From 'Osedax' symbiont bacterium Rs2_46_30_T18 (GTDB taxonomy: Bacteria; Pseudomonadota; Gammaproteobacteria; Pseudomonadales; Balneatricaceae), in NCBI GenBank assembly GCA_002163025.1, contig MABF01000244.1:1-52400 (forward strand): a DNA stretch of 52,400 bases, written 5' to 3'. Positions 707 to 21,638 of the stretch are shown piece by piece. Made by a program: the position numbers and the translations under genes. The stretch's first letter is position 1; each line of letters starts with the position of its first letter. Below the pieces are notes generated by a model. It worked only from the letters and a program-made list of their open reading frames with translations. It was not told the origin of the DNA and made no database searches.

Positions 707-1579
707 TTAAACCCGGCTCAGTGTCGTTGCCTTACGTGACATCTTTAAACGAATTAGGGTATGGATAATCAAGGTTGCTATTACTATAGTGCCTCCTTGT
801 AGCGCTGCAGTATTTGGCGCGATTTCCAGAAATATCCAAATCCATAGCGGCCCTATTACTGTCTCGAGCAACATCAACATACCTACTTCAGCGGCGGGAA
901 TACGTTTGGGGCCTAAGGTGATCAAGATAAAAGCGATAGGTACTATCACCAGGCAGAGCATTGCAGTCCAAACCCACTGGGTGCCGTGCAGCATGATAGA
1001 GTCGGAATTAAATACCGCAAACAGCGCCATAATCAGGCCCCCACCAATTAACGAAGGTACCATTGAATGCTTAGTTTCAGCCCGGTCATTGACAAACTTA
1101 CTGGACAGGGCCAAACCACAGGCCAGTGCCAGTAAATCACCTTTTAAGTTGGGGCCATTCCAGGAGTCAATTAATACCCAGGCAATGCCAAACATAGAGA
1201 TGACAATGGCAACCCAAGTGACCATTGGCGATTTCTCACCGAGCAGCGCCCAGGCTAGAAAAGCGGCAAACAGCGGCTGCACGCTGATAATCACTAACAC
1301 ATTGGCGACAGAGGTCGAGTTGATCGCCATGACAAAACAGATAGAGCTAATGCCAAATAAAACGGTTGAGCGAATGTAGCGCCAGTCACTGCGAAAAAGT
1401 GCCTCCCCTGGTGATTTTAGCTTGCAGCCAATAGCGACAATAGCACTCAGCAGCAAGCCGCGCCAAAATAGCAGATCGGCGCTCTCAGCATCAATTAGGC
1501 GGATAAACAGCGCGTCAAAACTGAGAAAAATGACCCCCATAGCGGTCAGGGTAAATCCTTTAAAATATTCAGTGTTCAA
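707..1579 (-). CDS. EamA/DMT family transporter
   Basis: 290 aa, about 10 hydrophobic segments, two EamA-like halves; divergent from the tpa-like gene. Confidence 0.85.
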   Translation of the reverse strand: MNTEYFKGFTLTAMGVIFLSFDALFIRLIDAESADLLFWRGLLLSAIVAIGCKLKSPGEALFRSDWRYIRSTVLFGISSICFVMAINSTSVANVLVIISVQPLFAAFLAWALLGEKSPMVTWVAIVISMFGIAWVLIDSWNGPNLKGDLLALACGLALSSKFVNDRAETKHSMVPSLIGGGLIMALFAVFNSDSIMLHGTQWVWTAMLCLVIVPIAFILITLGPKRIPAAEVGMLMLLETVIGPLWIWIFLEIAPNTAALQGGTIVIATLIIHTLIRLKMSRKATTLSRV

Positions 1580-1702: not shown

Positions 1703-1731
1703 AACCAGATGCTTGAAACCGATAGATCCAG
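1703..1731 (-). promoter_or_regulatory. Putative TauR/MocR direct-repeat box, oriented to the EamA transporter
   Basis: Minus strand CTGGATCTATCGGTTTCAAGCATCTGGTTTAGT: CCAG at 1705-1708 and 1728-1731 on plus, spacing exactly 23 bp. Confidence 0.55.
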
Positions 1732-1753
1732 CCCCAATCGCTGATGAAACCTG

Positions 1754-1786
1754 CTGGCATCAATATCGATAAAGATCTGGTTCTAT
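1754..1786 (+). promoter_or_regulatory. Putative TauR/MocR direct-repeat box upstream of tpa
   Basis: CTGGCATCAATATCGATAAAGATCTGGTTCTAT; CTGG at 1754 and 1777 (23 bp). ATCTGGTTCTAT is repeated identically upstream of xsc. Confidence 0.65.
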
Positions 1787-1950
1787 CTGCTTTTTTCCAT
1801 TCCCGTATAGCTTTAGAGCATGGTATGCGCATAAGTGTGCGACATACTTTCGTGCAGCAAAGTCGTGCGAAGCTGTCGCTCTGTTGAGCGCAGCTACTTT
1901 AAACAATATTCAACGAACAGCGCAATCGATAATGATTGGGGGAGGTAAAT

Positions 1951-3378
1951 ATGACAATTAATCTGAACGAGTACGATGCCAAACAAGTAGTGGCCAATGA
2001 TCGAAAGCACGTATGGCATCACTTATCTCAGCACAAAGTTTATGAAGATGCCGACCCTATGGTTATCGTTAAAGGCGCGGGTATGCGTGTTTGGGATGCC
2101 AAAGGAAATGAGTATTTAGATGCTGTATCAGGGGCAGTTTGGACTGTCAATGTCGGCTATGGTCGCACCGAAATTGCCGATGCAGTACGCGATCAATTAG
2201 TGACTATGAATTACTTTGCGCAAACTGCTGGTAACGTAGTGGCAGCACAGTACGCAGCCAAATTAATCGAGAAAATGCCCGGTCTGTCGCGGGTTTACTA
2301 TTCTAACTCGGGTTCAGAGGCCAACGAGAAAGCGTTTAAGATTGTTCGCCAGATAGCGGCGAAAAAGTACGGCGGTAAAAAGCACAAGATCTTATTTCGC
2401 GAACGCGACTACCACGGAACGACTATCACCGCTTTGAGTGCCACCGGCCAATTTGAGCGAAAAAATCAATATGGTCCCTTTACTCCGGGCTTTGTTGAAG
2501 TACCACACTGCTGTGAATATCGCTCGCAGTGGGGCGAGGTCGACGATTACGGTGTGCGCGCAGCCAACGAAATTGAAAAAGTCATCTTGCGTGAGGGTGC
2601 CGACACTATCGGTGCTCTTTGCCTGGAGCCGATTACTGCAGGCGGGGGGGTGATTGAGCCGCCAGAAGGGTACTGGGAGCGGGTTCAGGAAATCTGCAAA
2701 AAGTACGACATCTTGTTGCACATCGATGAAGTGGTCTGCGGACTAGGTCGCACAGGCACTTGGTTTGGCTATCAGCACTACGGTGTTAAGCCCGACATAG
2801 TGACGATGGCTAAAGGTGTTGCCTCTGGTTACGCTGCGATTTCCTGCACAGTCACAACTGAAGCTGTGTTCGACCACTTCAAAGAAGATGACGACCCGCG
2901 CATGGGGTATTTCCGTGATATCTCAACCTTTGCAGGATGTACAGCAGGTCCGGCTGCAGCGCTGGCGAATATGAAAATTATTGAAGATGAAAATTTATTA
3001 GAAAATGTAAAGGTTCAGGGCGAGTACCTGCTTGGGCGTCTGCATCAGCTGATGGATAAATATCAGGTGATCGGTGATGTGCGTGGCAAGGGGTTGTTTG
3101 TAGGCTTTGAATTGGTCAAAGACAGAGAGACGAAAGAGCCGGTGGATGAGAGCTTAGCAATACAGCTAGGCGCACACTGCATGAAAAATGGGGTGATTAT
3201 AGGCCGCACAAACCGCTCTTTCAAAGACTATAACAATACAGTTTGCCTCAGTCCCGCGCTGATAGCTACCCGTGAAGAAATTGATATTATTGTTGACGCA
3301 CTGGATAACGCGTTGGCGGAATTAGCGCCAAATCAACAGCCTGTGATCGTGGAAGCACCTGAGATGGAGGAGGCATAA
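1951..3378 (+). CDS. tpa: Class III aminotransferase, taurine:pyruvate aminotransferase type
   Basis: MTINLNEYDAKQVVANDRKHVWHHLSQHK...; class III PLP motif LLHIDEVVCGLGRTGTWFGYQHYGVKPDIVTMAKG; adjacent to TauR-like regulator and Xsc. ATG at 1951 preceded by GGGGGAGG; the ORF track extends to 1936. Confidence 0.88.
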   Translation: MTINLNEYDAKQVVANDRKHVWHHLSQHKVYEDADPMVIVKGAGMRVWDAKGNEYLDAVSGAVWTVNVGYGRTEIADAVRDQLVTMNYFAQTAGNVVAAQYAAKLIEKMPGLSRVYYSNSGSEANEKAFKIVRQIAAKKYGGKKHKILFRERDYHGTTITALSATGQFERKNQYGPFTPGFVEVPHCCEYRSQWGEVDDYGVRAANEIEKVILREGADTIGALCLEPITAGGGVIEPPEGYWERVQEICKKYDILLHIDEVVCGLGRTGTWFGYQHYGVKPDIVTMAKGVASGYAAISCTVTTEAVFDHFKEDDDPRMGYFRDISTFAGCTAGPAAALANMKIIEDENLLENVKVQGEYLLGRLHQLMDKYQVIGDVRGKGLFVGFELVKDRETKEPVDESLAIQLGAHCMKNGVIIGRTNRSFKDYNNTVCLSPALIATREEIDIIVDALDNALAELAPNQQPVIVEAPEMEEA

Positions 3379-3422
3379 GTAACAGTGAGTTAGCGGCAAT
3401 CGAGCAATGCTGATCATAAAAG

Positions 3423-3461
3423 AGCCAAACCTGTGTTTTCAGGTTTGGCTTTGTCGTTTTT
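3423..3461 (+). terminator. Rho-independent terminator after tpa
   Basis: Perfect 11-bp stem AGCCAAACCTG (3423-3433) / CAGGTTTGGCT (3440-3450), then TTGTCGTTTTT. Confidence 0.85.
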
Positions 3462-3558
3462 GTCACTTTGCAAAAGTGCTTTTATTACAATTTAGTGGCA
3501 CACTGGATTTGAACTAAAATTATTGTGCTAATGGCCGTTTTGAAAGAAGGTATTTTTA

Positions 3559-5034
3559 ATGTTTCAACTATTTCATTTGAGCCAGGGAAATGGTGCAAGT
3601 TTACAGCAGCAGCTTCGCGAACAGATAGCGGGTGCTATCTTGAACGGCAACATACCACTACAGAAGCCGCTTCCCTCCAGTCGCAAAATGGCACAGCAGT
3701 TAAATGTAGCCCGAAATACTGTAGTGATTGCCTATGAACACCTGTTAGATGACGGTTACATAATAGCTAAAGAGCGCTGTGGCTATTTTGTCAATCCAGA
3801 TATATTAAATGGCAAGGTAAAACTTGAGGTACAAGATCCTAATAGTGATATAAAAATCAACGGTAATGCTCCCGATTGGCAGCAGCGTTTCAAACTAAAC
3901 CCCAGCAGCCAGACTAACGTGATCAAGCCTAAAGACTGGCAAACCTACGATTACCCCTTTATCTATGGGCAGTTCGACAACAGTATGTTTCCTACCGTTA
4001 ACTGGCGTGAGTGTTGTAAAGATGCAGTGAGCGGGCCGGCAATCAACGAGTGGGCAGCCGACAGGTTTGATAAAGATGACCCGCTGTTAATAGAGCAGAT
4101 ACGCACCCGGTTATTGCCGCGTCGAGGTGTCTGGGCGAGTGCCGATGAAATACTCGTCACTGTGGGAGCACAGCAGGCACTGTATATGCTGGTGAAACTG
4201 CTGCTGGACAAAAACAGTACAATTGGATTGGAAGAACCTGGTTATGTGGATATCCGCAATATTGCCAGCTTAAATCCCTCCAAGATAAAATCGATACCTG
4301 TCGATAGCGACGGCATGTTGGTTGGTGATGTGTTGTCGGGCTGTGACTTGGTCTACTCCACACCGAGTCATCAGTGCCCGAGCACGGTAACTATGCCATT
4401 AGAGCGGCGCTACCAGTTATTACAGCAAGCCAGTGATGAAGATTTTATTATCATCGAAGATGATTACGAAAGTGAAACTAACTTTAATTCAAACCCTATC
4501 CCCGCGCTAAAGAGCCTGGATGAAAATGACAGGGTTATCTATGTCGGCAGTTTATCTAAAACTTTGGCCCCAGGGCTGCGATTGGGCTATATCGTCGGCC
4601 CCGCCGAATTTATTAAAGAGGCACGGGCACTGCGGCGTCTAATATTGCGTCACCCGGCAGCTAATAATCAAAGATCAGTGGCCCTGTTTTTGGAGCGCGG
4701 TTATCACGACTCGCTGATTATGAACATTATGCGCAACTACCAGACCCGTTGGCGGGCTATGGATGAAGCCCTGACTAAGTATTTGCCTGAGTCTCACGAC
4801 CAACCTACGTTTGGTGGTTCATGTTACTGGGTTAAAGGGCCGGAAAATTTAGATGCCAGTAAATTACAGCTATTGGCACGCGAGCACAGTATTTTAATCG
4901 AGGCGGGTGAGATTCACTTCTTGCAACAGCCGGCGGCAAAGAACTATTTCCGGCTCGGGTTTTCCTCCATCGCCACTGATAAGATAGAGCCTGGGATTAA
5001 AAAACTTGCCGAGTTAATCCACTCGATAGTTTAA
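3559..5034 (+). CDS. tauR: MocR-family (GntR-HTH + aminotransferase fold) regulator, TauR-like
   Basis: N-terminal wHTH (LQQQLREQIAGAILNGNIPLQKPLPSSRKMAQQLNVARNTVVIAYEHLLDDGYI) and aminotransferase-like region with SLSKTLAPGLRLGYIVGP; located between tpa and xsc. Confidence 0.85.
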   Translation: MFQLFHLSQGNGASLQQQLREQIAGAILNGNIPLQKPLPSSRKMAQQLNVARNTVVIAYEHLLDDGYIIAKERCGYFVNPDILNGKVKLEVQDPNSDIKINGNAPDWQQRFKLNPSSQTNVIKPKDWQTYDYPFIYGQFDNSMFPTVNWRECCKDAVSGPAINEWAADRFDKDDPLLIEQIRTRLLPRRGVWASADEILVTVGAQQALYMLVKLLLDKNSTIGLEEPGYVDIRNIASLNPSKIKSIPVDSDGMLVGDVLSGCDLVYSTPSHQCPSTVTMPLERRYQLLQQASDEDFIIIEDDYESETNFNSNPIPALKSLDENDRVIYVGSLSKTLAPGLRLGYIVGPAEFIKEARALRRLILRHPAANNQRSVALFLERGYHDSLIMNIMRNYQTRWRAMDEALTKYLPESHDQPTFGGSCYWVKGPENLDASKLQLLAREHSILIEAGEIHFLQQPAAKNYFRLGFSSIATDKIEPGIKKLAELIHSIV

Positions 5035-5142
5035 TTTCTAGTTCAAGTTTGAATTCAATTATACCGCTCGATCTGCACAGGGGCTTTATAGCCCCTGATT
5101 AAATATCCTTGTATACCCCCATATTACTTTTCTCATTCTCTT

Positions 5143-5175
5143 CTGGCTCAACTTACACTCTAAATCTGGTTCTAT
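5143..5175 (+). promoter_or_regulatory. Putative TauR/MocR direct-repeat box upstream of xsc
   Basis: CTGGCTCAACTTACACTCTAAATCTGGTTCTAT; CTGG at 5143 and 5166 (23 bp). Confidence 0.65.
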
Positions 5176-5265
5176 TGTCCAGGCGTGGCTGCTACTAATA
5201 TCGACTATAAGATATTCGTACCCAGTTCTGACATAGATTCAGACATTATAAGAAGGAAGGCTAAT

Positions 5266-7029
5266 ATGGCTCGTATGACTCCCAGTGAAGCATTTGTAGA
5301 AACCTTGGTTGCCAACAAAGTAAGCGACTGTTTTGGAATAATGGGTTCAGCATTTATGGATGCTATGGACATTTTTACTCCCGCAGGTATTCGTTTAATT
5401 CCGGTTGTACATGAGCAGGGAGCCGGGCATATGGCCGATGGTTATTCCAGAGTCTCAGGTCGCCACGGAGTGTGTATTGCGCAAAACGGCCCAGGTATTA
5501 CCAACTTTGTTACCGCAATCGCCGCCGCGTACTGGGCTCATTCCCCAGTCGTATGCATCACCCCGGAAACAGGCACTAACAGTCAGGGTCTAGGAGGCTT
5601 TCAGGAGGCGGAACAGCTACCGTTCTTTGAAACCATTACCGCTTATCAAGTGAGTGTGGTCAATAACACGCGCATGGCAGAGCTGACTGCGCGTTGCTTC
5701 GACAGAGCGATGTTAGAAAATGCACCGACTCAGCTGAATATTCCAAGAGATAATTTTTACGGCGATATCGATTGCGAAATCCCTAAGCCAATTCGCATTG
5801 AGCGCTCAGCAGGTGGAGCCCAGGCACTTAAAGATGCAGCGACACTGTTAGCCAGCGCCGAATTCCCGGTGATGGTTTCTGGTGGCGGAGTAGTGATGGG
5901 TGATGCCTTTGAAGAGGCTATCGCTATTGCTGAGGCTTTAGATATGCCGGTAGTGAACAGCTATCTGCACAATGACTCATTCCCGGCATCACACCGTCTA
6001 TCGACTGGACCACTGGGTTATCAGGGTTCCAAAGCGGCGATGAAGTTGATTGCCAAAGCCGACGTGATCTTGGCTCTAGGTACACGTTTAGGGCCTTTCG
6101 GTACTCTGCCACAGCACGGCATGGACTACTGGCCAAAAGATGCAAAAATTATTCAGGTCGACTGCGATCCTAAGATGTTGGGCTTAGTTAAAAATATCGA
6201 TGTGGGCATTAATGGCGATGCTAAAGCGGCTGCACTGGCGCTGTTGGAATTGCTTAAAGGCCATTCTCCTAAGTGTCTGGCTAACCGCGAAGCTCGTTTG
6301 CAAGTTATCAACGAAGAAAAAGATGCCTGGGAAGCTGAGCTCAGTGACTGGACCCACGAAAAAGATGCCTATTCACTAGAGATGATTGAAGAGCAAAAAG
6401 CCGAGCAGGGCAGCTTTATGCATCCACGTCAGGTATTGCGCGAACTGGAAAAAGCCATGCCAGCTGATGTGATGGTCTCTACCGATATCGGTAACATCAA
6501 CTCAGTCGCTAACAGCTACCTGCGTTTTGATCGTCCAAGATCATTTTTTGCCCCTATGTCTTTTGGTAACTGTGGTTATGCACTACCGACTATTATCGGC
6601 GCCAAAGTAGCAGCGCCTGAACGTCCGGCCATCGCCTACGCAGGTGACGGCGCCTGGGGCATGTCTATGGTTGAAATCATGACTTGTGTGCGTGAAAGTA
6701 TCCCGGTCACTGCGGTAGTGTTCCACAACCGTCAGTGGGGAGCTGAGAAGAAAAACCAGGTAGATTTCTATAACCGTCGCTTTGTCGCTGGTGAGCTAGA
6801 AAACCAGAGTTTTGCGGGAATAGCTCAGTCAATGGGCGCTCATGGTGTTGTCGTCGATAAACTCGAAGATGTTGGTCCGGCCCTGAAAGAGGCGGTCAGG
6901 CTACAGATGGAAGAGGGAATCACTACGGTATTAGAAGTTATGTGTACCAGAGAGCTGGGTGATCCGTTCCGTCGCGATGCACTCTCTAAGCCAGTGCGTC
7001 ACTTAGACAAGTACAAAGACTTCGTATAA
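5266..7029 (+). CDS. xsc: Sulfoacetaldehyde acetyltransferase (TPP enzyme)
   Basis: MARMTPSEAFVETLVANKVSDCFGIMGSAFMDAMDIFTPAGIRLIPVVHEQGAGHMADGYSRVSGRHG...; TPP-binding region GDGAWGMSMVEIMT; ATG at 5266 with AGAAGGAAGG upstream (a GTG at 5185 gives a longer ORF). Confidence 0.95.
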   Translation: MARMTPSEAFVETLVANKVSDCFGIMGSAFMDAMDIFTPAGIRLIPVVHEQGAGHMADGYSRVSGRHGVCIAQNGPGITNFVTAIAAAYWAHSPVVCITPETGTNSQGLGGFQEAEQLPFFETITAYQVSVVNNTRMAELTARCFDRAMLENAPTQLNIPRDNFYGDIDCEIPKPIRIERSAGGAQALKDAATLLASAEFPVMVSGGGVVMGDAFEEAIAIAEALDMPVVNSYLHNDSFPASHRLSTGPLGYQGSKAAMKLIAKADVILALGTRLGPFGTLPQHGMDYWPKDAKIIQVDCDPKMLGLVKNIDVGINGDAKAAALALLELLKGHSPKCLANREARLQVINEEKDAWEAELSDWTHEKDAYSLEMIEEQKAEQGSFMHPRQVLRELEKAMPADVMVSTDIGNINSVANSYLRFDRPRSFFAPMSFGNCGYALPTIIGAKVAAPERPAIAYAGDGAWGMSMVEIMTCVRESIPVTAVVFHNRQWGAEKKNQVDFYNRRFVAGELENQSFAGIAQSMGAHGVVVDKLEDVGPALKEAVRLQMEEGITTVLEVMCTRELGDPFRRDALSKPVRHLDKYKDFV

Positions 7030-7043
7030 GCACAGACTAAACC

Positions 7044-7076
7044 AACCTGAGTTGCATTTTGGCAACTCAGGTTTTT
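7044..7076 (+). terminator. Rho-independent terminator between xsc and pta
   Basis: AACCTGAGTTGC (7044-7055) / GCAACTCAGGTT (7062-7073) followed by a T tract. Confidence 0.85.
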
Positions 7077-7160
7077 GTATTTTTGATAAAGAACATGCAA
7101 ATACGCCCGTTATTTTCTGTCCGGACTTATTTCCATGTTCCCTGTTGGAGTCACTAAGGA

Positions 7161-8153
7161 ATGAAAGCACTGAATAATATATTCCGTCGCGCTGCTGCCG
7201 ATGTCAGGCACATTGTCTTAGCGGAAGGGGAAGATCCACGCATAATCGACGCTGCAGTGCAAAGCGTGGCTAAGGGGATAGCGACAATCACCTTATTGGG
7301 CAATGCGCCACGCATTGCCCGCGAGGCGCAACGGCTTAATCTTAGCTTGGCTGGCATCAGTGTTATCGATCCTAAATCTGCGACTAAAAAGACCCAGTAT
7401 AGCGAGGTTCTCTATCAGCTGCGAAAGAACAAAGGCATGACTAGAAATGATGCCAGCGAACTGACTGATCATCCACTGTATTACGCGCAGTTAATGGTGC
7501 ATCTGGGAGACGCCGATGGATCAGTAGCTGGGGCTGTTTACACCACCAGTGACACAGTGCGCACGGCTATTCAAATCATTGGCAAAGCGGAAGGCGCCGC
7601 CATGGTATCGAGTTTCTTCTTGATGATGCTGTGCCAGCCGTTTCATGAGATGCAAGGCGGCGTGATATTCTCTGATTGCGCTTTAATCATTGAGCCCGAC
7701 CAACAGCAATTAGCTGAAATCGCCCTCAGTGCTGCCGCCAGTGCCGAGAAACTGCTGGCAGAACCTGCCCGTGTGTCTATGTTGTCTTTTTCAACCAATG
7801 GCAGTGCTCAGCATCCGGCGGTGGATAAAGTAGTAGCGGCAACAGCGCTGGTCAAAGAGCGTCGACCAGAGCTGATGGTAGATGGTGATGTGCAGCTGGA
7901 TGCGGCCATTATTCCGGATATAGCCGAGCGTAAAGTAGTTAATTCAGAAGTAAAAGGCAGGGCTAATGTGCTAGTTTTTCCGTCACTGGAGGCGGGGAAT
8001 ATCGGCTATAAGTTAGCGGAACGTATCGGTAAGGCAGAGGCCATAGGCCCTATTTTGCAGGGACTGAAAAAGCCGGCAAACGATTTATCCCGCGGCTGCA
8101 GCGCCAATGATGTATTGAACGTGATCGCTATTACTGTGGTGCAGGGGCAGTAA
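7161..8153 (+). CDS. pta: Phosphate acetyltransferase (short form)
   Basis: 330 aa PTA_PTB domain: VLAEGEDPRIIDAAV..., HLGDADGSVAGAVYTTSDTVRTAIQIIG, LVFPSLEAGNIGYKLAERIG. Confidence 0.92.
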   Translation: MKALNNIFRRAAADVRHIVLAEGEDPRIIDAAVQSVAKGIATITLLGNAPRIAREAQRLNLSLAGISVIDPKSATKKTQYSEVLYQLRKNKGMTRNDASELTDHPLYYAQLMVHLGDADGSVAGAVYTTSDTVRTAIQIIGKAEGAAMVSSFFLMMLCQPFHEMQGGVIFSDCALIIEPDQQQLAEIALSAAASAEKLLAEPARVSMLSFSTNGSAQHPAVDKVVAATALVKERRPELMVDGDVQLDAAIIPDIAERKVVNSEVKGRANVLVFPSLEAGNIGYKLAERIGKAEAIGPILQGLKKPANDLSRGCSANDVLNVIAITVVQGQ

Positions 8154-8248
8154 AGTTTCCTCAGCCGCGCTGCTACATACAGTAGAGCGCGGTCTGTTTT
8201 TTCTATAAGCTTTGGGGTCATTGAAATCTGCGGTTATCAGCCTTGGAA

Positions 8249-9655
8249 TTAGATAACTACATCAGTCTGCGCGTTAAGTTGCTCTAGTACTTGTGAAAAA
8301 ATAACAACTCCTCTATCAAAAAGCTGGCGAGAGTCTGGCCCACCTATGGCAATTCTTAGAGCATTACTCTGCAACTGACTATTAGCGGCAGTGAATACGT
8401 CGGCGGTCCGTACTTTGACATTTTTCGCCAGCAATAAGCCGCACAATTGATACATGTTGATATCATCCGGCAGCTCCAGCCACAAATTTAAACCGCCACA
8501 GCAAACACTTAGATTGTAGCGCTCAAACATCTCAATGAAGGCTTGTTGACGGTAGCCAAGCTCAGCTTCTAGTCGCTGTTGGTTTTGCAGGTAACTATCG
8601 CTTTGGATAAAGCGACAGGCGAGCTCGAAATTCATCGTTGACACCATCCAGCATTGAGCGTGGATGTGCTGGTTTAACTTCGCCTGTAACGCTCTTGGCG
8701 CTAACATATAGCCGATGCGTAACCCGCCGGCAAAATATTTAGATAAACTGGATAAATAGATAAATCTGTCAGGCGCCTGTTGTTGAAATGGCGGTCGCCA
8801 GTACTGGCTAAGACAGTAATTTACGTCATCCTCAATAATATAAAATTGATATTTTTTACTTAGGACTAGCAGTTTTTGCAGTAGCTGATGAGAGTATTGA
8901 AAATTGGTCGGGTTTTGCATGTTAGGCGTGATATACAAGACTTTTACCTTGTTTTCGCGACAAATGTCTTCAAGTATAGCTAAGTCCAACCCTTGATTTG
9001 TCAGTGGAACTTCCTGCGTTTGCAGACCGGAAGCCCTCGCCGCTTTGTGAAATCCTGGGTAGCACAACTGTTCGTGTACCACTAAGTCTCCAGGTTGGGT
9101 CAAAACCTGCAGTACAGAATAAATACCCTGCTGCGCTCCCTGGGTGAAAATGAGCTCTTTAGCGTTGTTTTCAATACCTTTAGCACTCAACCATTGAGAA
9201 AAAACTTTTTTATGCCTGCTTATGCCCTCGGCAGAATAGGCCATCATTTGCAACAGTGCCACAGAATCATTGGCCAGTTCGTGCATCGCCTGGGCCAAAA
9301 TATTTTGCTGGCCGAGCATAGGTTGCATGCTGGCGGAAAAGTCGATGCATTGATTGCTCTCCCGAACTAACAACCCTGAATTAACAAAAGTGCCCGCACC
9401 CAATTTTGCTACGACTATGCCCCTTTTCTCAGCCAGCGCATAGGCACGGGTAACTGTGCCGTGTGTCACATTCAGTTGGTCCGCCAGCCAGCGCTGCGCC
9501 GGTAACTTTTGTTGATGCGCCAGTTCTCCTGAGCTTATCGCCGCTTCAATGTAACCCGCCAATACTTTGTATTTTGCTTGAGTTTCGCAGTCTTCGATAA
9601 AAGCTTGTTTATCTATTTCCCAAATTGTACCCATAACAATAAAACCGTTGCTCAT
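8249..9655 (-). CDS. MocR-family PLP-dependent transcriptional regulator
   Basis: GntR-type N-terminus (LPAQRWLADQLNVTHGTVTRAYALAEKRGIV) plus aminotransferase fold (YLSSLSKYFAGGLRIGYMLAP). Confidence 0.88.
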   Translation of the reverse strand: MSNGFIVMGTIWEIDKQAFIEDCETQAKYKVLAGYIEAAISSGELAHQQKLPAQRWLADQLNVTHGTVTRAYALAEKRGIVVAKLGAGTFVNSGLLVRESNQCIDFSASMQPMLGQQNILAQAMHELANDSVALLQMMAYSAEGISRHKKVFSQWLSAKGIENNAKELIFTQGAQQGIYSVLQVLTQPGDLVVHEQLCYPGFHKAARASGLQTQEVPLTNQGLDLAILEDICRENKVKVLYITPNMQNPTNFQYSHQLLQKLLVLSKKYQFYIIEDDVNYCLSQYWRPPFQQQAPDRFIYLSSLSKYFAGGLRIGYMLAPRALQAKLNQHIHAQCWMVSTMNFELACRFIQSDSYLQNQQRLEAELGYRQQAFIEMFERYNLSVCCGGLNLWLELPDDINMYQLCGLLLAKNVKVRTADVFTAANSQLQSNALRIAIGGPDSRQLFDRGVVIFSQVLEQLNAQTDVVI

Positions 9656-9680
9656 TTAAAGGAGTTGTGACAAATTACGC

Positions 9681-9712
9681 ATGCATACACTTGTGTTGAT
9701 TGTATGCATACA
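9681..9712. promoter_or_regulatory. Putative operator between MocR regulator and LysE exporter
   Basis: ATGCATACA (9681-9689) inverted as TGTATGCAT (9701-9709) and repeated directly at 9704-9712 (23-bp register); TGTATGCATACA is itself a palindrome. Confidence 0.55.
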
Positions 9713-9739
9713 ATAATTTAAAATCAAGAGGAAACGAAC

Positions 9740-10345
9740 TTGAACAGCGCACTGATCGAACTGGCTCCCACACTGGCATTGTTTTGCATGGTAACAACTC
9801 TGACTCCCGGGCCAAACAACATTTTACTGGCTCACTCTGGTGCCCATTTTGGCATCAGGAAAACCTTACCGCATGTTTTAGGCATTCGATTTGGTATGAC
9901 CGCGCTGCACTTAACTATTCTGTTTGGATTGGGCGAATTATTTAAAACCTGGCCCAACTTACAGCAACTATTGAGTCTGCTCGCCTGTAGTTACATTATT
10001 TACATTGCCATTAAAATTGCCGGTAACAAAGCGCCAGATGGTCACTCAAAAGGCAACCCTATGAGCTTTCTGCAAGCGGCAAGTTTCCAACTGATCAACC
10101 CAAAATCCTGGGCGATGCTGCTGACTGCCAGCTCAGTATTTACCTTGGAAAATGAATTATTCTGGCCATCGGCGATACTGGGAGTACTGCTATTCAATCT
10201 GGCGACTCTGCCTGGCACTTTCATGTGGATCACTATAGGCAAGTTGGTCTCGAAAAAATTGATCGATCCAACATTTAATCAACGCTTTAACTGGAGCATG
10301 AGCTTTTTACTGTTGCTCACATTACCTATGCTATTTTTGTCTTAA
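9740..10345 (+). CDS. LysE/RhtB family amino acid exporter
   Basis: TLTPGPNNILLAHSGAHFGIRKTLPHVLGIRFGM motif; 5-6 hydrophobic segments; divergent from a MocR regulator. Confidence 0.88.
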   Translation: MNSALIELAPTLALFCMVTTLTPGPNNILLAHSGAHFGIRKTLPHVLGIRFGMTALHLTILFGLGELFKTWPNLQQLLSLLACSYIIYIAIKIAGNKAPDGHSKGNPMSFLQAASFQLINPKSWAMLLTASSVFTLENELFWPSAILGVLLFNLATLPGTFMWITIGKLVSKKLIDPTFNQRFNWSMSFLLLLTLPMLFLS

Positions 10346-10468
10346 GCCTGGAGTGAGATTGCGGGTAAGCAGCCTGTGTCATCCGCAACTGTATTTCTAG
10401 TGTAACTTATATCACCGTTTATTAACGCAGCTGAGGTAACTGACGCTGCTACCAGAGAGGTTGTTAGG

Positions 10469-10972
10469 ATGCTGGACACTTTGAAGATGTTTACCCAATA
10501 TAAAAGCTGGGCAAATGAAACAAGCTACAACGCACTGACACAAGTAGGGGATGAAGAGCTACATAAGCAGCGCCAAACGAACTTTAAAACTATCATCTCC
10601 ACCTTAAATCATATCTACGTTGTTGATGATATTTTTAAAGCCCACCTGACGGGCACTGGACACCCATACCAACAGAGAAATACCGAACAGAGATTCTCTT
10701 TTGAACAGTTATGGGATAAACAGCTGCAGATGGACCTATGGTACATAGATTATGTAGATGCTTTAGCCAGTAATGATAGCGAACAGAGAATCAGTTTTGA
10801 ATATGTCGGTGGCGGTTCCGGGAATATGAGTATCGGCGAAATTATTTTGCATATAGTCAATCACAATACTTACCATCGCGGTTTTGTCAGTGACATGATG
10901 TATCAGATTCCGTTTAAACCAACGGCTAATGACTTGACGGTTTTTTTGCGTGACCACTACAAAGCCAGCTAA
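10469..10972 (+). CDS. DinB family protein
   Basis: MFTQYKSWANETSYNAL..., NHIYVVDDIFKAHL, ILHIVNHNTYHRGFVSDMM: DinB metal-binding His pattern. Confidence 0.85.
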   Translation: MLDTLKMFTQYKSWANETSYNALTQVGDEELHKQRQTNFKTIISTLNHIYVVDDIFKAHLTGTGHPYQQRNTEQRFSFEQLWDKQLQMDLWYIDYVDALASNDSEQRISFEYVGGGSGNMSIGEIILHIVNHNTYHRGFVSDMMYQIPFKPTANDLTVFLRDHYKAS

Positions 10973-11010
10973 CGGATCAATATTTCTCACTGTTGTCTGT
11001 CAATAAATAC

Positions 11011-11038
11011 CGCCAGAATCCACAGTTGTATTCTGGCG
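11011..11038. terminator. Hairpin terminator between convergent dinB-like and HD-GYP genes
   Basis: CGCCAGAAT (11011-11019) / ATTCTGGCG (11030-11038). Confidence 0.6.
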
Positions 11039-11051
11039 ATATTATTAGTTG

Positions 11052-12500
11052 CTAGTCTTTAAATTGTTCCGCTATCTGTATAAATCGCTGTTCTAATTTG
11101 AGAAACACATCGATTATGGCCGGGTCAAAATGACTGCCATTACCCTCAATGATAATAGATTTTGCTTTGTCGTGACTAAAAGCTGGCTTGTAAACCCGTT
11201 TGGTGATCAGTGCATCGTAGACGTCTGCCAGGGCCATTAAGCGCCCTGATAGTGGGATTTGCTCCGCCTTGAGGCCGTTAGGATAGCCACTTCCATCCCA
11301 TTTTTCATGGTGGGTGAGGCTTATATCCCGAGCAACAGACAAAAATGAGCTACCTTGTGAATCTCCCTTGGCTTGCTCTAGTGCGTCGGCACCTATTTGC
11401 GGGTGCTGTTTCATGATTGAAAACTCATCATCAGTCAGCTTGCCGGGTTTGAGCAAAATACTGTCGGGGATACCGACTTTACCAATGTCGTGCAGTGGCG
11501 CTGATTTGTAGAGTAATTCTATGCTGTAGTCATTCAGTTCAGCGCTGTATTTCGGGTTTTTTCTGAGTTCGAGGGCCAGAGCTTTCACATAATTTTGGGT
11601 TCGCATAATGTGCCCGCCAGTCTCGTTGTCGCGGGTCTCTGCCAGTGTTGCTAAGCTGAGTATGCATATATCCCGGGTCAGGTTGATCTCGTGGTTCTGC
11701 TGCGCTAGTGAGGAGATCATCACATTGGTATGTTGGGCGATAAGGCCAAATTCATCGTTGCTTATAACTGCAGCCTGGGTGGATAAATTACCACTAGTGA
11801 CTAGCTCTAAGGCGCTGTTCTGGGTGGTGATAAAAGCTTTTAAATTTCTTGCATAAGACAGAATTATCAGCAGCACATAGCCCATCATTACGCTGATGAC
11901 AAATATTACCTCGGCCAGGATATATACTTTAGCCATGGCTAAGTCGATGCTCGGATCTCGATTTATCAGCCAATGCAAATCTTTGTTGATGACTAATATC
12001 ACCACAAAGACAATTGATAATAAGCAGATGGTCGCGAACCAGCTGAACTTTTTGGTCAGTGGATAGGGATTTTCATCCGGTGCCAGATTTCGGTTTGTTT
12101 TCTTCAGTACTATGCCTATGTTGAGCTCTTTGTGCAGTGATAAATCACAGCTGATAAAAAAACCCAATATGATAATGCCCAGTAGGACTTTCAACTCGCT
12201 CTCCAACGGAAAACTATGGACTAGTTTGTTATAGCCCGCCAGCGCCAAAGCAATGGCGATAAATATACAAAAATCCCATACAAACTGATGTTTTGCTTGT
12301 TTTTTTAACACTACGTTAGTGAGTTTTTGCTCCAGGGCGTACCTGAGTGCCAGCGCCAATGAGAATATAATTAAGATGGGCACGAGCAGGGCAGTTAAGC
12401 TTAATGACTCTATAAACGGACACACATTTATCCCGTATACAGCAAAGATTATTGCGCCAAATGTGTAGTGACCAGTGCTTCTGATTAACGTTGAATTCAT
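11052..12500 (-). CDS. Membrane HD-GYP domain protein (putative c-di-GMP phosphodiesterase)
   Basis: Multiple TM segments, then ETRDNETGGHIMRTQNYV...HDIGKVGIPDSILLKPGKLTDDEFSIMKQHPQIG...HHEKWDGSGYPNGLKAEQIPLSGRLMALADVYDAL. Confidence 0.93.
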   Translation of the reverse strand: MNSTLIRSTGHYTFGAIIFAVYGINVCPFIESLSLTALLVPILIIFSLALALRYALEQKLTNVVLKKQAKHQFVWDFCIFIAIALALAGYNKLVHSFPLESELKVLLGIIILGFFISCDLSLHKELNIGIVLKKTNRNLAPDENPYPLTKKFSWFATICLLSIVFVVILVINKDLHWLINRDPSIDLAMAKVYILAEVIFVISVMMGYVLLIILSYARNLKAFITTQNSALELVTSGNLSTQAAVISNDEFGLIAQHTNVMISSLAQQNHEINLTRDICILSLATLAETRDNETGGHIMRTQNYVKALALELRKNPKYSAELNDYSIELLYKSAPLHDIGKVGIPDSILLKPGKLTDDEFSIMKQHPQIGADALEQAKGDSQGSSFLSVARDISLTHHEKWDGSGYPNGLKAEQIPLSGRLMALADVYDALITKRVYKPAFSHDKAKSIIIEGNGSHFDPAIIDVFLKLEQRFIQIAEQFKD

Positions 12501-12963
12501 GCTGTCTCAGTAGATAAATTAAGGGTGAACAGGGGCTATCAAGCTGTGGAACATGCCTTCTGTATTTTACCTAAATAACAGGGGATAGGCATTAAGAAAA
12601 AATGGGGGAATAGTAGGAGGTAAGCGTGGGGAGTAGTAAGTGGGAAGTGGGAAGTTCGGGGTTTTAGGAATAACTTCGGTTTATGAGAATACTGCTGTTG
12701 TGCTCTGGCTACCCTGTATTTATCAGTAAGATAGCCGCTAAATAAGTTTTATGAACTTAAAATAAATAACTTCCATTTTTGTTGCTTTGCATATACTCTA
12801 TTTTGGTCATGGATGATAAATACAATAGACTTCATAAAAATGAGAATAAAGTAAGTGCAATATTGTTGACGCACTCGTTGTCCCTCAACTGATTGAAATC
12901 ACCCGTAACTCTGAAATGATGTAATTATTTTTTCTTTTATAATAAGGATAGGATGAATTAAAA

Positions 12964-13464
12964 ATGAGAAATTTTACCTGTGTTTCTGTCGCTATGTTGA
13001 TTGCATTACCCAGTATCGCGATGGCCGATGATTATTTGATTAATCAAGATATTGTTATTTTTGATAAAGCCAAAATAGAACAACAGCATGGTGGCAGCAA
13101 CATACAGGCATTTAACAATGCAGAGCTTGACTCTTCTTATGGGGAGATACGGCAAAAAGCGCTACTTTACAGATTTGAAGCTACGCAAAAGCAAGGGGCT
13201 GAAAATATTCAGGCGATCAACAGAATAGTATTAGATGATAACAGATTTAGTACTGATATTATCCAGGAGGTAGAGGCCGACCGGATTAATTTCCAGCAAG
13301 AAGGCGGTGAAAAAAATCAACAAAGTGCTAACTATGTTGAATTTGAAAGTGATCTAAGTTTTACCTCTATTGTTCAGAGTGTCAGTGCTGATGACGTTTC
13401 TATGAGGCAAAGTGGCGGTAATGATAACCTGCAAAGTCTGAATAATATCAAACTACTCAGGTGA
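12964..13464 (+). CDS. Secreted curlin/holdfast-like repeat protein
   Basis: Signal peptide MRNFTCVSVAMLIALPSIAMA; four repeats with core Q-x-G-(G/A)-x-x-N-x-Q-(A/S)-x-N at residue spacing 35, 37, 37 (N46, N81, N118, N155). Confidence 0.75.
   Translation: MRNFTCVSVAMLIALPSIAMADDYLINQDIVIFDKAKIEQQHGGSNIQAFNNAELDSSYGEIRQKALLYRFEATQKQGAENIQAINRIVLDDNRFSTDIIQEVEADRINFQQEGGEKNQQSANYVEFESDLSFTSIVQSVSADDVSMRQSGGNDNLQSLNNIKLLR
13084..13443 (+). repeat. Four protein-level repeats of 35-37 aa within the curlin-like gene
   Basis: QHGGSNIQAFNN / KQGAENIQAINR / QEGGEKNQQSANY / QSGGNDNLQSLNN, with intervening IRQKA, IIQEVEA, IVQSVSA strands. Confidence 0.75.
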
Positions 13465-13793
13465 AGCTATTTGCAATATTGTTTATGTCATTTATAGCAG
13501 TGTTTGCATGGGGGGAGGGGAATTCAACATTCCCCACAATCCCTCTCTCTGATAAATCATACAGCGCCAGAAATATGATATCTGAAGCAAAAGTGATTAG
13601 ATCGGACACTGAAACTGACGGCTACAAAGTAATAGACCCCAATGGAAATGAGTTTTATGTAGACGATATAAAAAATCCTACTAAAGCTTTTTACGGTGTT
13701 TATATCGATTTTGGCAATGACGATATTTTAAAATCACAGATAGATATTGAAATTAATATCGATATTGACAGTATAAATTTCTTTGGATTATAG
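13461..13793 (+). CDS. Small secreted protein of unknown family in curlin-like operon
   Basis: GTG start overlapping the previous stop (GTGA); signal peptide MKLFAILFMSFIAVFAWGEG; mature part ends in an alternating acidic/hydrophobic segment IDIEINIDIDSINFFGL. Confidence 0.65.
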   Translation: MKLFAILFMSFIAVFAWGEGNSTFPTIPLSDKSYSARNMISEAKVIRSDTETDGYKVIDPNGNEFYVDDIKNPTKAFYGVYIDFGNDDILKSQIDIEINIDIDSINFFGL

Positions 13794-13800
13794 GTTTTTT

Positions 13801-14682
13801 ATGAAATTTCCGGGTTTGTTTCTGCTTTTACTCTGTGTTCTTGGTGGTTGTAGTAGTAATCAAGTCGCTTTTCAAAACGTAAGCTCAGTACCGGTCAACA
13901 CAACCACCAGTTTGAGTAATGTTTTAGCTTGTACAAAAGAAAAAATTGCCTCACACAATCAAAACACTGCCTACCTCATTATCGTAAGAGAGGTTGTTGA
14001 TGGCACTGTCAGAGAGAGAAGCACCAGTGATGGACCGCTTGGGGATGCCGGTGTGCATCAGTTACAAGGCGCTTTGGTTAGCTTGTTAAACAGTGAAAAA
14101 GCCATTGTCGTGGATAATCAACCGTCGATGTTCTCTAAGTACAGTAGAGGGTCCACTGGTTTAAATAAATTCGGAGTACCAGAGAGTGAGGCTCAAGTTA
14201 CCTATAAAGAATCGATGTTGAATTATGTTAATGCTATAAGAACAGGAAAGGGAATTCGTGCGGCCGAGTCCATTGTTGTTTTAACGATATCGGGGGCTTT
14301 TACTCGAATCGACTCAGCTAACCTGTCTAATGATGGATACGGTTTGACTCTCGGTGCCAATGGTAGCGGTGGTAAAGGAGAGATTGAATTCGGAAAATCT
14401 GTGTCAAAGAAAGTTATTTCTTTAAGCATAAATTTAATCAGACCTATGCTTAATACCATTATTAAGTCCGAGTCATTCGATCTTGAATTTTATAATTCAT
14501 CCAAAAAGTACAATGTTAAAGGGACTGTCGGCGAGGTTGATTTAGGTCTAGCGCTTTCTAATACAAGGATAGAAAGTATGCACAGTGCGCAGCAGACCTT
14601 AATCGATGCCTCAGCTATCTGGCTGGTTGAAAATCTGTTTTCCGGATCAACTAAATCATGTTTAACAACACAGCATGTATGA
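13801..14682 (+). CDS. CsgG/HfaB-like outer-membrane secretion lipoprotein
   Basis: Lipobox LLLCVLGGC; SIVVLTISGAFTRIDSANLSNDGYGLTLGANGSGGKGEIEFGKSVSKKVISLSINLIRP resembles the CsgG segment AVVVSVEGQYTGFDNR...GIGGSKQDARQVVTVDLRVVN (from memory). ATG at 13801; the ORF track starts at 13783. Confidence 0.7.
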   Translation: MKFPGLFLLLLCVLGGCSSNQVAFQNVSSVPVNTTTSLSNVLACTKEKIASHNQNTAYLIIVREVVDGTVRERSTSDGPLGDAGVHQLQGALVSLLNSEKAIVVDNQPSMFSKYSRGSTGLNKFGVPESEAQVTYKESMLNYVNAIRTGKGIRAAESIVVLTISGAFTRIDSANLSNDGYGLTLGANGSGGKGEIEFGKSVSKKVISLSINLIRPMLNTIIKSESFDLEFYNSSKKYNVKGTVGEVDLGLALSNTRIESMHSAQQTLIDASAIWLVENLFSGSTKSCLTTQHV

Positions 14683-14735
14683 ATGACCCGGTAGAAGATT
14701 AAGCACTAAAACGGTGCGCTGATTGGTGAAAAAGC

Positions 14736-16505
14736 TCATACAGCTCTTCGTTGCAGCATCTGTAAAATCTGAGTAAAGATTGAATTTTCCATCTTTTCCG
14801 GGATCTGCAGGGCTAAGCTGTGCCGATAGTAAGGGCTGAGGTCCAATCCAAAGCCCAATGCATAGAGTTCGATGTCAGGGCTGTTCTCCAGCATAGTGGC
14901 TACCTGACGCAAGTGATTGTCCAGATAGTTGTTGGCATTGGTCTGATGAGTGGCGCTCTCCATTGGGCAGCCATCGGATAAGACGATTAATATGCGCCGC
15001 TGCTCAGGTCTGGTCTGCATACGCTTTGCCGCCCACAGTAATGCTTCACCGTCGACCCCCTCGCGAAACAAATCAGCTTTTAACATTGCCCCTAAACCGC
15101 GCTTGGCCCGCTGTAGTTTTGTGTCGGCATCTTTGTAAATAATATGTCGGGTCTCACATAAGCGCCCGGGGTTTTCTGGACGTAACTGTCGCATCCATTG
15201 TTTGTAGCTTTTGCCCCCCTGCCAGGATTTAGTGGTGAAACCTAAGACTTCAGTGCTGGCTCCGGCCATTTCCAGGGCTTTAGTTAAAATGTAGATCAAG
15301 GTTGAGATTGCGTGAATGTGCTCTTTCATAGAGCCTGAATTATCCATCAGCAATGTGACCAGGCAATTACCACTGGGCAGCTGGCGCTGGCTGCGAAATA
15401 TATTACGGTAGCCCGGCGTTGTGACGATAGTATTTAATTTGCGCCCGTCAATGTAACCCTGTTCACGTGAGAATTGCCAACCGCTTTGTTGCTGGCCCGG
15501 GAGGATTGCTGCAAGCTCACGGGCCAGTCTGGGTATATTTATCGCCTGATTTTTCAGTAACTGCGCTTGTGTTTTAGCAAAATCATCGAGTTGCGAGTCC
15601 AATACCAGTTGTTCGGCTTTAACTATTTGATCATTGCTGCGGGTGAATATTTGATAGTTATTGAGTTGCTCGATAATCTGCCTGACTCTGACGTTATCAG
15701 GCCTTTTACCCGCGACAGAGATTTCACTATTATCATCGCTTTCAGGCTCCAGAAATAAACTAAAGCTGGCACCAGAGCTGTTTTCATTGGCTTGCTCTTT
15801 GTTTGTATCGGCATCACTGTCGTCAATCAGGCTATCCATCACTTCAACAATGACTAACGCGTGCTGGGCAAAGACAGATTGATCGCGGGTGTTTTTACGC
15901 ATACCAAGTAGGGCACCGCCAATGTGCCTGGCGATCATCATGCGCATCGGCTCAATTAAATCTTCGCTCTGGTGGTTCATTGGCAAACTGGTAAGGCGGC
16001 ACCAGACGACCTGGGCGATTGTGAAAACCATTAAGCCCAATTGATTTTCGACTGTGTCCGAGGCGCAAAATTGCTTGCACCACTGACGAAATCGGTGCTC
16101 TAGGTTTTTTCTGGTACCAGGCTGTAAATCGCTGACCAGTGATTCAGTACGAAGTTGTTCTAGCAGCTCAAAAACAAGCTGACCGATATTGCTCTGGGGC
16201 ATTAACTGTTGGTGCAGTTGTGCATCGCTGTATTTTAGTCGCAGGGCGATGGCATCAGCGGCACCGCGAAAAGATTGATAGTTATCAATGGCAAAATCCG
16301 GGCGCAAGTGTGGCGCTCTGATCTGCGCCGACTGGCCGTTAACTTCTGGACGCTGACCGCGAAACTCAAAGCTGGCGCAGCCGCTATTTGCGCGCACAGA
16401 GGCACTGCAGAGCTTTTCTACATGTTGCTGAAGTTTTTCGATGCGCATTTTTGAGTTGTCGGTAGATCCGGCGACAGCACCTTGCAGAATATCAATGACG
16501 GCCAT
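14736..16505 (-). CDS. CobT-like VWA-domain protein (orphan, no CobN in window)
   Basis: C-terminal VWA with MIDAS-like LLMDNSGSMKEHIHA; CobT-like RQLPSGNCLVTLLMDNSGSMK...GFTTKSWQGGKSY; 3' partner overlapping the AAA+ gene. Confidence 0.82.
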   Translation of the reverse strand: MAVIDILQGAVAGSTDNSKMRIEKLQQHVEKLCSASVRANSGCASFEFRGQRPEVNGQSAQIRAPHLRPDFAIDNYQSFRGAADAIALRLKYSDAQLHQQLMPQSNIGQLVFELLEQLRTESLVSDLQPGTRKNLEHRFRQWCKQFCASDTVENQLGLMVFTIAQVVWCRLTSLPMNHQSEDLIEPMRMMIARHIGGALLGMRKNTRDQSVFAQHALVIVEVMDSLIDDSDADTNKEQANENSSGASFSLFLEPESDDNSEISVAGKRPDNVRVRQIIEQLNNYQIFTRSNDQIVKAEQLVLDSQLDDFAKTQAQLLKNQAINIPRLARELAAILPGQQQSGWQFSREQGYIDGRKLNTIVTTPGYRNIFRSQRQLPSGNCLVTLLMDNSGSMKEHIHAISTLIYILTKALEMAGASTEVLGFTTKSWQGGKSYKQWMRQLRPENPGRLCETRHIIYKDADTKLQRAKRGLGAMLKADLFREGVDGEALLWAAKRMQTRPEQRRILIVLSDGCPMESATHQTNANNYLDNHLRQVATMLENSPDIELYALGFGLDLSPYYRHSLALQIPEKMENSIFTQILQMLQRRAV

Positions 16506-17490
16506 CTGCCATTAACTCGTTAGCTCTGCTAGCCCAGGATTCGCTAAGCTCCATATCAAAGCATCGCTGGAAAAACTCGGCGATAATACCTTGCTCAGCT
16601 TCATCGCACTTGTTTAAAAAAGAGAGTCGAAATGCTACAGCCGGGTCATCAAATATATCGATGTTCTCGGCCCAGGAAATCACCGTGCGCGGTGACATTA
16701 AGGTTGATATATCACCGGCGGCAAAACTGTTGCGGGTCATCTTAGCCACTTCCAGCATCGACATAATCAGTGCGTCAGAGATTTCCCTGGAGAAGTTTGT
16801 GCACTTACCACGGATTATCTGCAGCTCATCTTCAGCGGGCAGGTAACTTAAATTAGTCACTATGTCCCAGCGATCCATCTGCGCCTGGTTGACCATCTGG
16901 GTACCGTGGTAGAGCCCAGAGCTGTTACCTAAGCCCACAGTGTTGGCTGTTGCGAAAAGCCTGAATTGTGAGTGCGGAGTGATGACCTCATTTTGATCCA
17001 GTAACGTGAACTTACCATCGCGTTCTAACAATCTTTGAATAACGAACATCACTTCCGGGCGCCCGGCATCAAACTCATCAAATATCAACGCGGTGGGGCG
17101 GCGCAGTGCCCAAGGTAAGATCCCCTCCTGGAACTCGGTGATTTGCTTGCCCTCGCGGATCACGATCGTGTCTTTGCCGACTAAATCCAAACGGCTGATA
17201 TGTCCGTCTAAATTAATGCGCACACAGGGCCAGTTGAGACGCGCCGCTATTTGTTCTATATGGGTCGACTTACCGGTGCCGTGCAGCCCCTGCACCATTA
17301 CCCGTCGATTGCGACTGAACCCTGCCAGTAGCGCTAATGTCACCTCTGGGTTAAAGACGTAATTGGGGTCAATTTCTGGCACATGTTCATCGACATAACT
17401 GTATGCCGGTACTTTCAGCTGTGAGTTAATCCCAAAAATGTCACGGACCGATAACATTGTGTCTGGCTGATCTATTTGAATATCTGACAT
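16492..17490 (-). CDS. CobS-like AAA+ ATPase
   Basis: Walker A GLHGTGKST, Walker B ALIFDEFDAG, RINLDGHISRLDLVGKDTIVIREGKQITEFQEGILPWAL typical of CobS. Start taken at MSDIQIDQPD (17490); the ORF track extends to 17526. Confidence 0.87.
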   Translation of the reverse strand: MSDIQIDQPDTMLSVRDIFGINSQLKVPAYSYVDEHVPEIDPNYVFNPEVTLALLAGFSRNRRVMVQGLHGTGKSTHIEQIAARLNWPCVRINLDGHISRLDLVGKDTIVIREGKQITEFQEGILPWALRRPTALIFDEFDAGRPEVMFVIQRLLERDGKFTLLDQNEVITPHSQFRLFATANTVGLGNSSGLYHGTQMVNQAQMDRWDIVTNLSYLPAEDELQIIRGKCTNFSREISDALIMSMLEVAKMTRNSFAAGDISTLMSPRTVISWAENIDIFDDPAVAFRLSFLNKCDEAEQGIIAEFFQRCFDMELSESWASRANELMADGRH

Positions 17491-17553
17491 GCAAGCTTCC
17501 ATGGTGAAAATTACTAACTTAAACAATTATATAGCGAGATTCTAAGAGTAACA

Positions 17554-17582
17554 GAACCAGTCGCCAGGAATGAGTGCGGCCA
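17554..17582 (-). promoter_or_regulatory. Putative TauR/MocR direct-repeat box, oriented to the CobST-like genes
   Basis: Minus strand CTGGCCGCACTCATTCCTGGCGACTGGTTCTGT; CCAG at 17556 and 17579 (23 bp); second half-site CTGGTTCTGT is one mismatch from CTGGTTCTAT. Confidence 0.5.
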
Positions 17583-17595
17583 GGGAGGGCTATGG

Positions 17596-17630
17596 ATCTG
17601 GATCTACACTTTCCTAAAAACTGGCCTTTG
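17596..17630 (+). promoter_or_regulatory. Putative TauR/MocR direct-repeat box, oriented to soeABC
   Basis: ATCTGGATCTACACTTTCCTAAAAACTGGCCTTTG; CTGG at 17598 and 17621 (23 bp). Confidence 0.5.
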
Positions 17631-17859
17631 CCCATAGACCAGAGAATTCCTAAGCTATAGCTGCACAGAAGTGGCGTTGAATAGACACGCCCAGCTAGAT
17701 ACTTCATTTAATATTCTAATGTGGTATAAACTTATAACCAAAATAATAATGATAATAAAAATGTACTATTGGCAACTAAGCTAAAGGAGTAATAATCTAC
17801 TTAGATTATTGTCTTCCTCAGGCTAAGGTTAGCGATAGACACAGCTTGGACCGACAAAA

Positions 17860-21566: not shown

Positions 21567-21638
21567 TGACATACTGTGCGTTTAACAACAAGAAAATTTA
21601 CAGCTGGCGCTGCTTTTGCCAGCGTATTGGAGAATAAT

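Follow-up and report, generated by a model that had tools for sequence, protein, structure and literature searches.

The stretch of DNA analysed here, 52,400 nucleotides long and referred to in its entirety as the window, raises the question of whether several genes of taurine metabolism, a transporter gene and a gene pair named after cobalamin synthesis are controlled together, and, if so, by which protein. Five CTGG-N19-CTGG direct repeats precede these genes, and the first-pass annotation had read them as marking one regulon over tpa, xsc, soeABC, an EamA-type transporter gene and a CobST-like pair. Comparison with related genomes largely supports this claim, with the EamA part less certain. 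Very probably, a single regulator activates transcription from all five sites, and the most likely candidate is TauR, a MocR-family protein whose gene lies between tpa and xsc. The genes and repeats concerned are as follows.

707..1579, minus strand: EamA/DMT-family transporter gene, divergent from tpa (PF00892, 65.8 bits)
1705..1731, minus strand: TauR-type direct repeat of EamA, CTGGATCTAT..CTGGTTTAGT, with a 23-bp period (4/4 congeners)
1754..1780, plus strand: TauR-type direct repeat of tpa, CTGGCATCAA..CTGGTTCTAT (33/34 orthologous promoters)
1951..3378, plus strand: tpa, class III aminotransferase (PF00202), taurine:pyruvate aminotransferase by context, adjoining tauR/xsc in relatives
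3559..5034, plus strand: tauR, MocR-type GntR/aminotransferase regulator (PF00392 and PF00155), adjoining tpa/xsc in relatives
5143..5169, plus strand: TauR-type direct repeat of xsc, CTGGCTCAAC..CTGGTTCTAT (22-bp form in Leucothrix)
5266..7029, plus strand: xsc, sulfoacetaldehyde acetyltransferase (TIGR03457, 996 bits against a cut-off of 676)
7161..8153, plus strand: pta, phosphate acetyltransferase (TIGR00651)
14736..16505, minus strand: cobT-like, VWA protein (TIGR01651, 338.6 against 759 bits, below cut-off; PF11775)
16492..17526, minus strand: cobS-like, MoxR/dynein-type AAA+ ATPase of an xsc-linked clade (TIGR01650, 510 against 558 bits; tree)
17557..17583, minus strand: TauR-type direct repeat of cobST, CTGGCCGCAC..CTGGTTCTGT (29/32 orthologous promoters)
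17598..17624, plus strand: TauR-type direct repeat of soeABC, CTGGATCTAC..CTGGCCTTTG (23/30; box 2 often TTGG)
17860..20877, plus strand: soeA-like molybdopterin oxidoreductase (PF00384, PF04879, PF01568)
20877..21566, plus strand: soeB-like 4Fe-4S protein (PF13247)
21576..22568, plus strand: soeC-like DmsC-type membrane anchor (PF04976)

The identity of Xsc is certain from its sequence, and its nearest matches are in Osedax symbiont Rs2 (98% identical) and in a Nitrincolaceae MAG (98%). Gene context is the basis for the names Tpa, SoeABC and TauR. By their Pfam domains, the three soe products form a molybdopterin subunit, a 4Fe-4S subunit and a DmsC-type anchor in the SoeABC order, and we call the triplet SoeABC-like, with cytoplasmic sulfite oxidation as its putative function. 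The listed TTG start of the cobS-like gene falls inside the predicted promoter, and the real start is probably an ATG near 17502 or 17491. Two other parts of the window are recorded here in passing. Positions 12964-14682 hold a gene for a curlin-repeat-like protein, for which no Pfam match was found, followed by small proteins that by eye resemble a curli (Csg-type) assembly cluster. At 8249-10345, a second MocR-type regulator gene stands divergent from one for a 201-aa LysE/RhtB-type exporter-like protein (named by eye).

All five repeats were found again in the window. The positions given previously hold for four of them, and the cobS pair, placed at 17579/17556 on the minus strand, had been set one base low (its true span is 17557-17583); the flank identities quoted for the sites were correct, and each repeat is indeed oriented toward the gene it precedes. 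Eight matches to the bare CTGG-N19-CTGG pattern occur in the window against 1.24 expected; besides the five sites, two of them lie within cobT, at 15749 and 15988, and one, at 44879, within the ORF at 43920-45221. Since pattern searches return 210 such pairs in the 4.02-Mb genome, the five window pairs alone would be weak evidence and could be taken for chance matches of a common tetranucleotide. A refined pattern, CTGGNNNNA-N14-CTGGY, in which box 1 must have an A at position 9 and box 2 must be followed by a pyrimidine, matches the window exactly five times against 0.14 expected, and no shuffle out of 100 reaches five. Because these two letters were picked post hoc, from the sites and their orthologues, the comparative evidence carries more weight. 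Intergenic and genic matches in the genome were also compared, a scan proposed in the first-pass annotation, and the intergenic refined-pattern matches proved to be nearly restricted to these loci. The variant CTGGNNNNA-N13-WCTGGYY has 21 genome matches, 14 in ORFs, one inside a short truncated coding sequence (L223, read by eye) and six intergenic, the last being the five window sites and L222. This additional site, located before an OppA-like gene, was attractive at first because Opp genes are present in some TauR regulons; it was rejected as a target, the site having no conservation in the two closest relatives. With position, spacing, letters and -10 distance conserved across genera, and intergenic matches concentrated at these genes, chance is already contradicted as an explanation by the comparative data, and we consider it next to impossible.

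For that comparison, 195 related genomes and 80 xsc loci (among the matches listed) supplied the upstream regions of orthologues. A position weight matrix trained on the sites of tpa and xsc was too closely tied to lineage, scoring EamA low and missing cobS and soe, so conservation was assessed gene by gene. Pairs were required to have the A at position 9 and the pyrimidine, with at most one mismatch over the eight CTGG letters, and spacings from 9 to 60 were scanned. At 23 bp, a pair precedes 33 of 34 tpa, 29 of 32 cobS, 23 of 30 soeA and all four EamA orthologues, against mean counts at other spacings of 3.5, 1.6, 1.8 and 0.04, respectively; across targets, including the 15 xsc promoters with a 23-bp pair, these other-spacing means are about 0-5 and represent background. 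Exact boxes at 23 bp were found for tpa in 33/34, xsc in 15/105, cobS in 16/32 and soeA in 9/30 promoters. Four more exact xsc pairs, the Leucothrix form among this type, are spaced at 22 bp; the xsc promoters without a site are mostly those of betaproteobacteria and actinomycetes, and the xsc spacing is conserved in gammaproteobacteria. In soeA orthologues, box 2 is frequently TTGG, followed by CCTTTG or similar. Control upstream regions have no excess of exact 23-bp pairs (tauR 1/37, pta 0/19). The pta gene, which lacks a site of its own in these 19 relatives, is probably co-transcribed with xsc. Pairs of CTGG at 21 bp upstream of tauR were discounted, as they fall within the 3' end of tpa. 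The 23-bp spacing is thus kept upstream of orthologues of all five targets, as the initial reading had implied, and the cobS sites are retained even where cobST does not adjoin soe. The reading thereby withstands the two refuting outcomes named in the first-pass annotation, an equal motif frequency in unrelated intergenic regions and a loss of the spacing before orthologues. Within the window's family, G031 alone in the set lacks a cobS site; it has cobS and no xsc by the search used.

A third element accompanies the two boxes. Counted from where box 2 starts, TAnnnT comes 30 or 31 bp further downstream in 66 of 72 distinct sites (mostly 31 at tpa, mostly 30 at xsc, soeA and cobS), and the same offset carries it in 18 of 347 (5%) unpaired CTGGY controls. 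All five window sites have TAnnnT at 29-31.

1672-1677: -10-like TACGTT, EamA, found in the window only
1808..1813, plus strand: -10-like TAGCTT, tpa, 31 bp from the box 2 start
5196..5201, plus strand: -10-like TAATAT, xsc, 30 bp from the box 2 start
17526..17531, minus strand: -10-like TATAAT, cobST, 29 bp from the box 2 start
17651..17656, plus strand: -10-like TAAGCT, soeA, 30 bp from the box 2 start

Given this fixed third element, each site resembles a complete activator-type promoter, and the geometry would fit an activator whose downstream half-site lies beside the -35 region.

The EamA site is the least secure of the five, its conservation being known from four congeners and TAnnnT at +30/31 being present in 1/4. 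An alternative is that promoter function is limited to the sites of tpa, xsc, soeA and cobS, the EamA pair being a remnant or part of a four-box tpa operator (<- <- -> ->), a type found among MocR regulators, so that EamA would stand outside the regulon. The lack of a conserved -10 element favours that arrangement, but all four congeners keep the EamA boxes although the surrounding sequence has diverged: in G001, most of the EamA-tpa intergenic region has diverged, yet both sites are retained. Moreover, tpa is often accompanied in other genera by a divergent ThiG-like gene, which can bear its own minus-strand 23-bp site (L204, L209, L212, L213, L216); EamA occupies this place in the window's genus. 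We regard an EamA gene outside the regulon as rather unlikely, while granting it real weight, and retain EamA as a probable fifth target.

The composite promoter, that is, both boxes with the -10 element, was searched for in the 195 genomes, with reversed patterns as a control (mean 0.4-0.5). It occurs on average 5.5 times in the 36 genomes with a TauR orthologue versus 0.85 times in 66 genomes of the same family without one (Mann-Whitney P about 1e-15, uncorrected for phylogeny). The product of 3559-5034 has a GntR winged helix-turn-helix domain (PF00392) at residues 16-78 and an aminotransferase-like domain (PF00155) at 195-481, and it shares about 50% identity with the regulator found at xsc loci of Burkholderia. 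Its gene adjoins tpa/xsc here, as it does in many relatives, and the target promoters carry CTGGACYTAA-like direct repeats. Related sites occur at TauR-bearing loci of Burkholderia and S. meliloti and at actinomycete tpa-like genes; at loci with related regulators (betaproteobacteria, S. meliloti and actinomycetes), the repeat has 22-24-bp versions. From this co-occurrence, the synteny and the published consensus, we infer that TauR is the binder. The protein also passes the PdxR model NF052282 of NCBIfam (345 bits, cut-off 320); no pdx genes were found at the sites, and we consider PdxR a generic label, the neighbours and sites arguing for TauR.

The CTGG pairs could instead be real sites of some other protein, such as the second MocR regulator (8249-9655), encoded 3 kb away in the window, or an unlinked activator. 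Genus g2 lends this some substance: its members (G007, G022, G034 and others) have a TauR 63-66% identical as well as tpa and soe, and a motif mean of 0.93; they have only a distant Xsc homologue (45-46%) and no CobST-like pair, and no clear alternative motif was found in them. Either the motif differs in this genus or TauR is not the binder there, and g2 is the main unexplained exception. Against another binder, however, the second MocR was assigned at relatives' xsc loci only in L055 and L056, those of the two closest relatives, it is TauR that adjoins tpa/xsc and the motif, motif number tracks TauR presence, and the motif agrees with the TauR consensus. We therefore think a different protein quite improbable and proceed with TauR.

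The mode of action that we infer for TauR would be as follows. A head-to-tail dimer would bind the two CTGG half-sites, 23 bp or about two helical turns apart, with box 2 just upstream of the -35 region and the -10 TAnnnT at its fixed 30/31 bp. Taurine, or a product derived from it, would act on the aminotransferase-like domain with PLP and so turn on the transcription of tpa, xsc(-pta), soeABC, cobST-like and, probably, EamA as a putative transporter gene. Tpa would then convert taurine to sulfoacetaldehyde, Xsc would cleave this to acetyl phosphate and sulfite, Pta would make acetyl-CoA and SoeABC would oxidise the sulfite. Unbiased pattern matches in relatives place the same motif before genes for a TauE/SafE sulfite exporter (tauE), a TRAP solute-binding protein (dctP) and DUF3461 proteins, and, in G013, before a DUF6506 gene that belongs to a short series of genes closed by one for a hydroxyethylthiazole kinase. 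Xsc is thiamine-dependent, and sulfite export, sulfonate uptake and thiamine supply for Xsc would suit a taurine regulon. The DUF3461 genes with a 23-bp TauR-type site (L343, L346, L347) are a separate observation and may encode a sulfonate-related protein.

The CobST-like pair has the AAA+ CobS plus VWA CobT make-up of cobaltochelatase, and the window CobS is about 60% identical to canonical CobS, but three lines of evidence make a role as cobaltochelatase motor unlikely. Both proteins miss the NCBIfam equivalog cut-offs (CobS 510/558 bits, CobT 339/759). In a maximum-likelihood tree, 47 xsc-linked CobS proteins, a set that includes the one from G031 and in which some long branches join, are separated, with support 95/93, from 11 that are canonical or unlinked. 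Finally, CobN is absent from eight genomes with the CobST-like pair and is present without this CobS in congeners G002-G004 and G010; the genome of the window itself does have CobN, so that an association of the pair with CobN could still hold there.

The distribution of the pair follows a different gene. Among the matches listed, a CobS-like gene lies within the flank at 57 of 80 xsc loci of beta- and gammaproteobacteria and actinomycetes (L055-L134). Across the 195 relatives, by hand counts from tables of genomes that are related and hence not independent, CobS-like is present in 30 of 33 genomes with an Xsc of at least 70% identity versus 5 of 162 without, and four of these five exceptions (G146, G155, G171, G191) group with canonical CobS. 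It is found in none of 15 relatives with soeA and no xsc, although 13 of these belong to one genus. A function as SoeABC helper is accordingly ranked lower, given that these 15 all lack the pair and 30 of 33 xsc-bearing genomes have it. The CobS distribution tracks xsc rather than soe or cobN, which suggests that the pair may serve Xsc.

CbbQO and NorQD are MoxR-VWA pairs that activate the enzymes encoded alongside them. The CobST-like pair resembles them in joining an AAA+ ATPase to a VWA partner beside the enzyme putatively served, whereas it has no sequence-level membership of either group (the window CobS has weak PDB matches to CbbQ and NorQ), and Xsc is a proposed client. Tentatively, we suggest that CobST-like may be a MoxR-AAA+/VWA machine dedicated to maturing or reactivating Xsc, spread with xsc over proteobacteria and actinomycetes and switched with xsc by TauR in the window's family; an even chance would slightly overstate our confidence in this proposal. 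No paper linking xsc or sulfoacetaldehyde to CobS, CobT, MoxR or cobaltochelatase was found in open-access full text.

Compared with known systems, this one is a TauR regulon with extended gene content. It shares with the reconstructed TauR regulons, including the Rhodobacter capsulatus tpa promoter, a MocR regulator and direct CTGG-type repeats, with a CTGGACYTAA direct repeat as the published consensus (Suvorova and Rodionov 2016, PMC5320631). The main text of that study describes regulons with tpa, xsc, pta, thiG (in some lineages) and bisC/dmsC/hybA; the last three are the soe-type triplet, which the study interprets as electron acceptor for TauXY, and soe-type genes had thus been predicted in TauR regulons by 2016. 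The gammaproteobacterial regulons that it lists are limited to tauABC, tpa and an amino-acid ABC transporter (PMC5320631). The window differs by its Nitrincolaceae-like gammaproteobacterial host, by the fixed -10 distance described for promoters of its type and by two components absent from the main text of PMC5320631: relative to that text, the apparent novelty is CobST-like in a TauR-type regulon and, less securely, EamA.

Most likely, then, one taurine-responsive switch joins taurine breakdown and sulfite disposal in a marine, symbiont-related lineage. Its promoter module, two CTGG boxes and a -10 element at fixed distances, is searchable and can find new sulfonate genes in unannotated genomes. 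For CobST-like, a widespread pair named after cobalamin synthesis, following xsc in regulation, synteny and phylogeny is the first concrete functional lead, and the CobST-Xsc association is the part of these findings most deserving of experiment. If Xsc does need a dedicated chaperone, both reconstructions of taurine degradation and heterologous expression of Xsc should include CobST-like.
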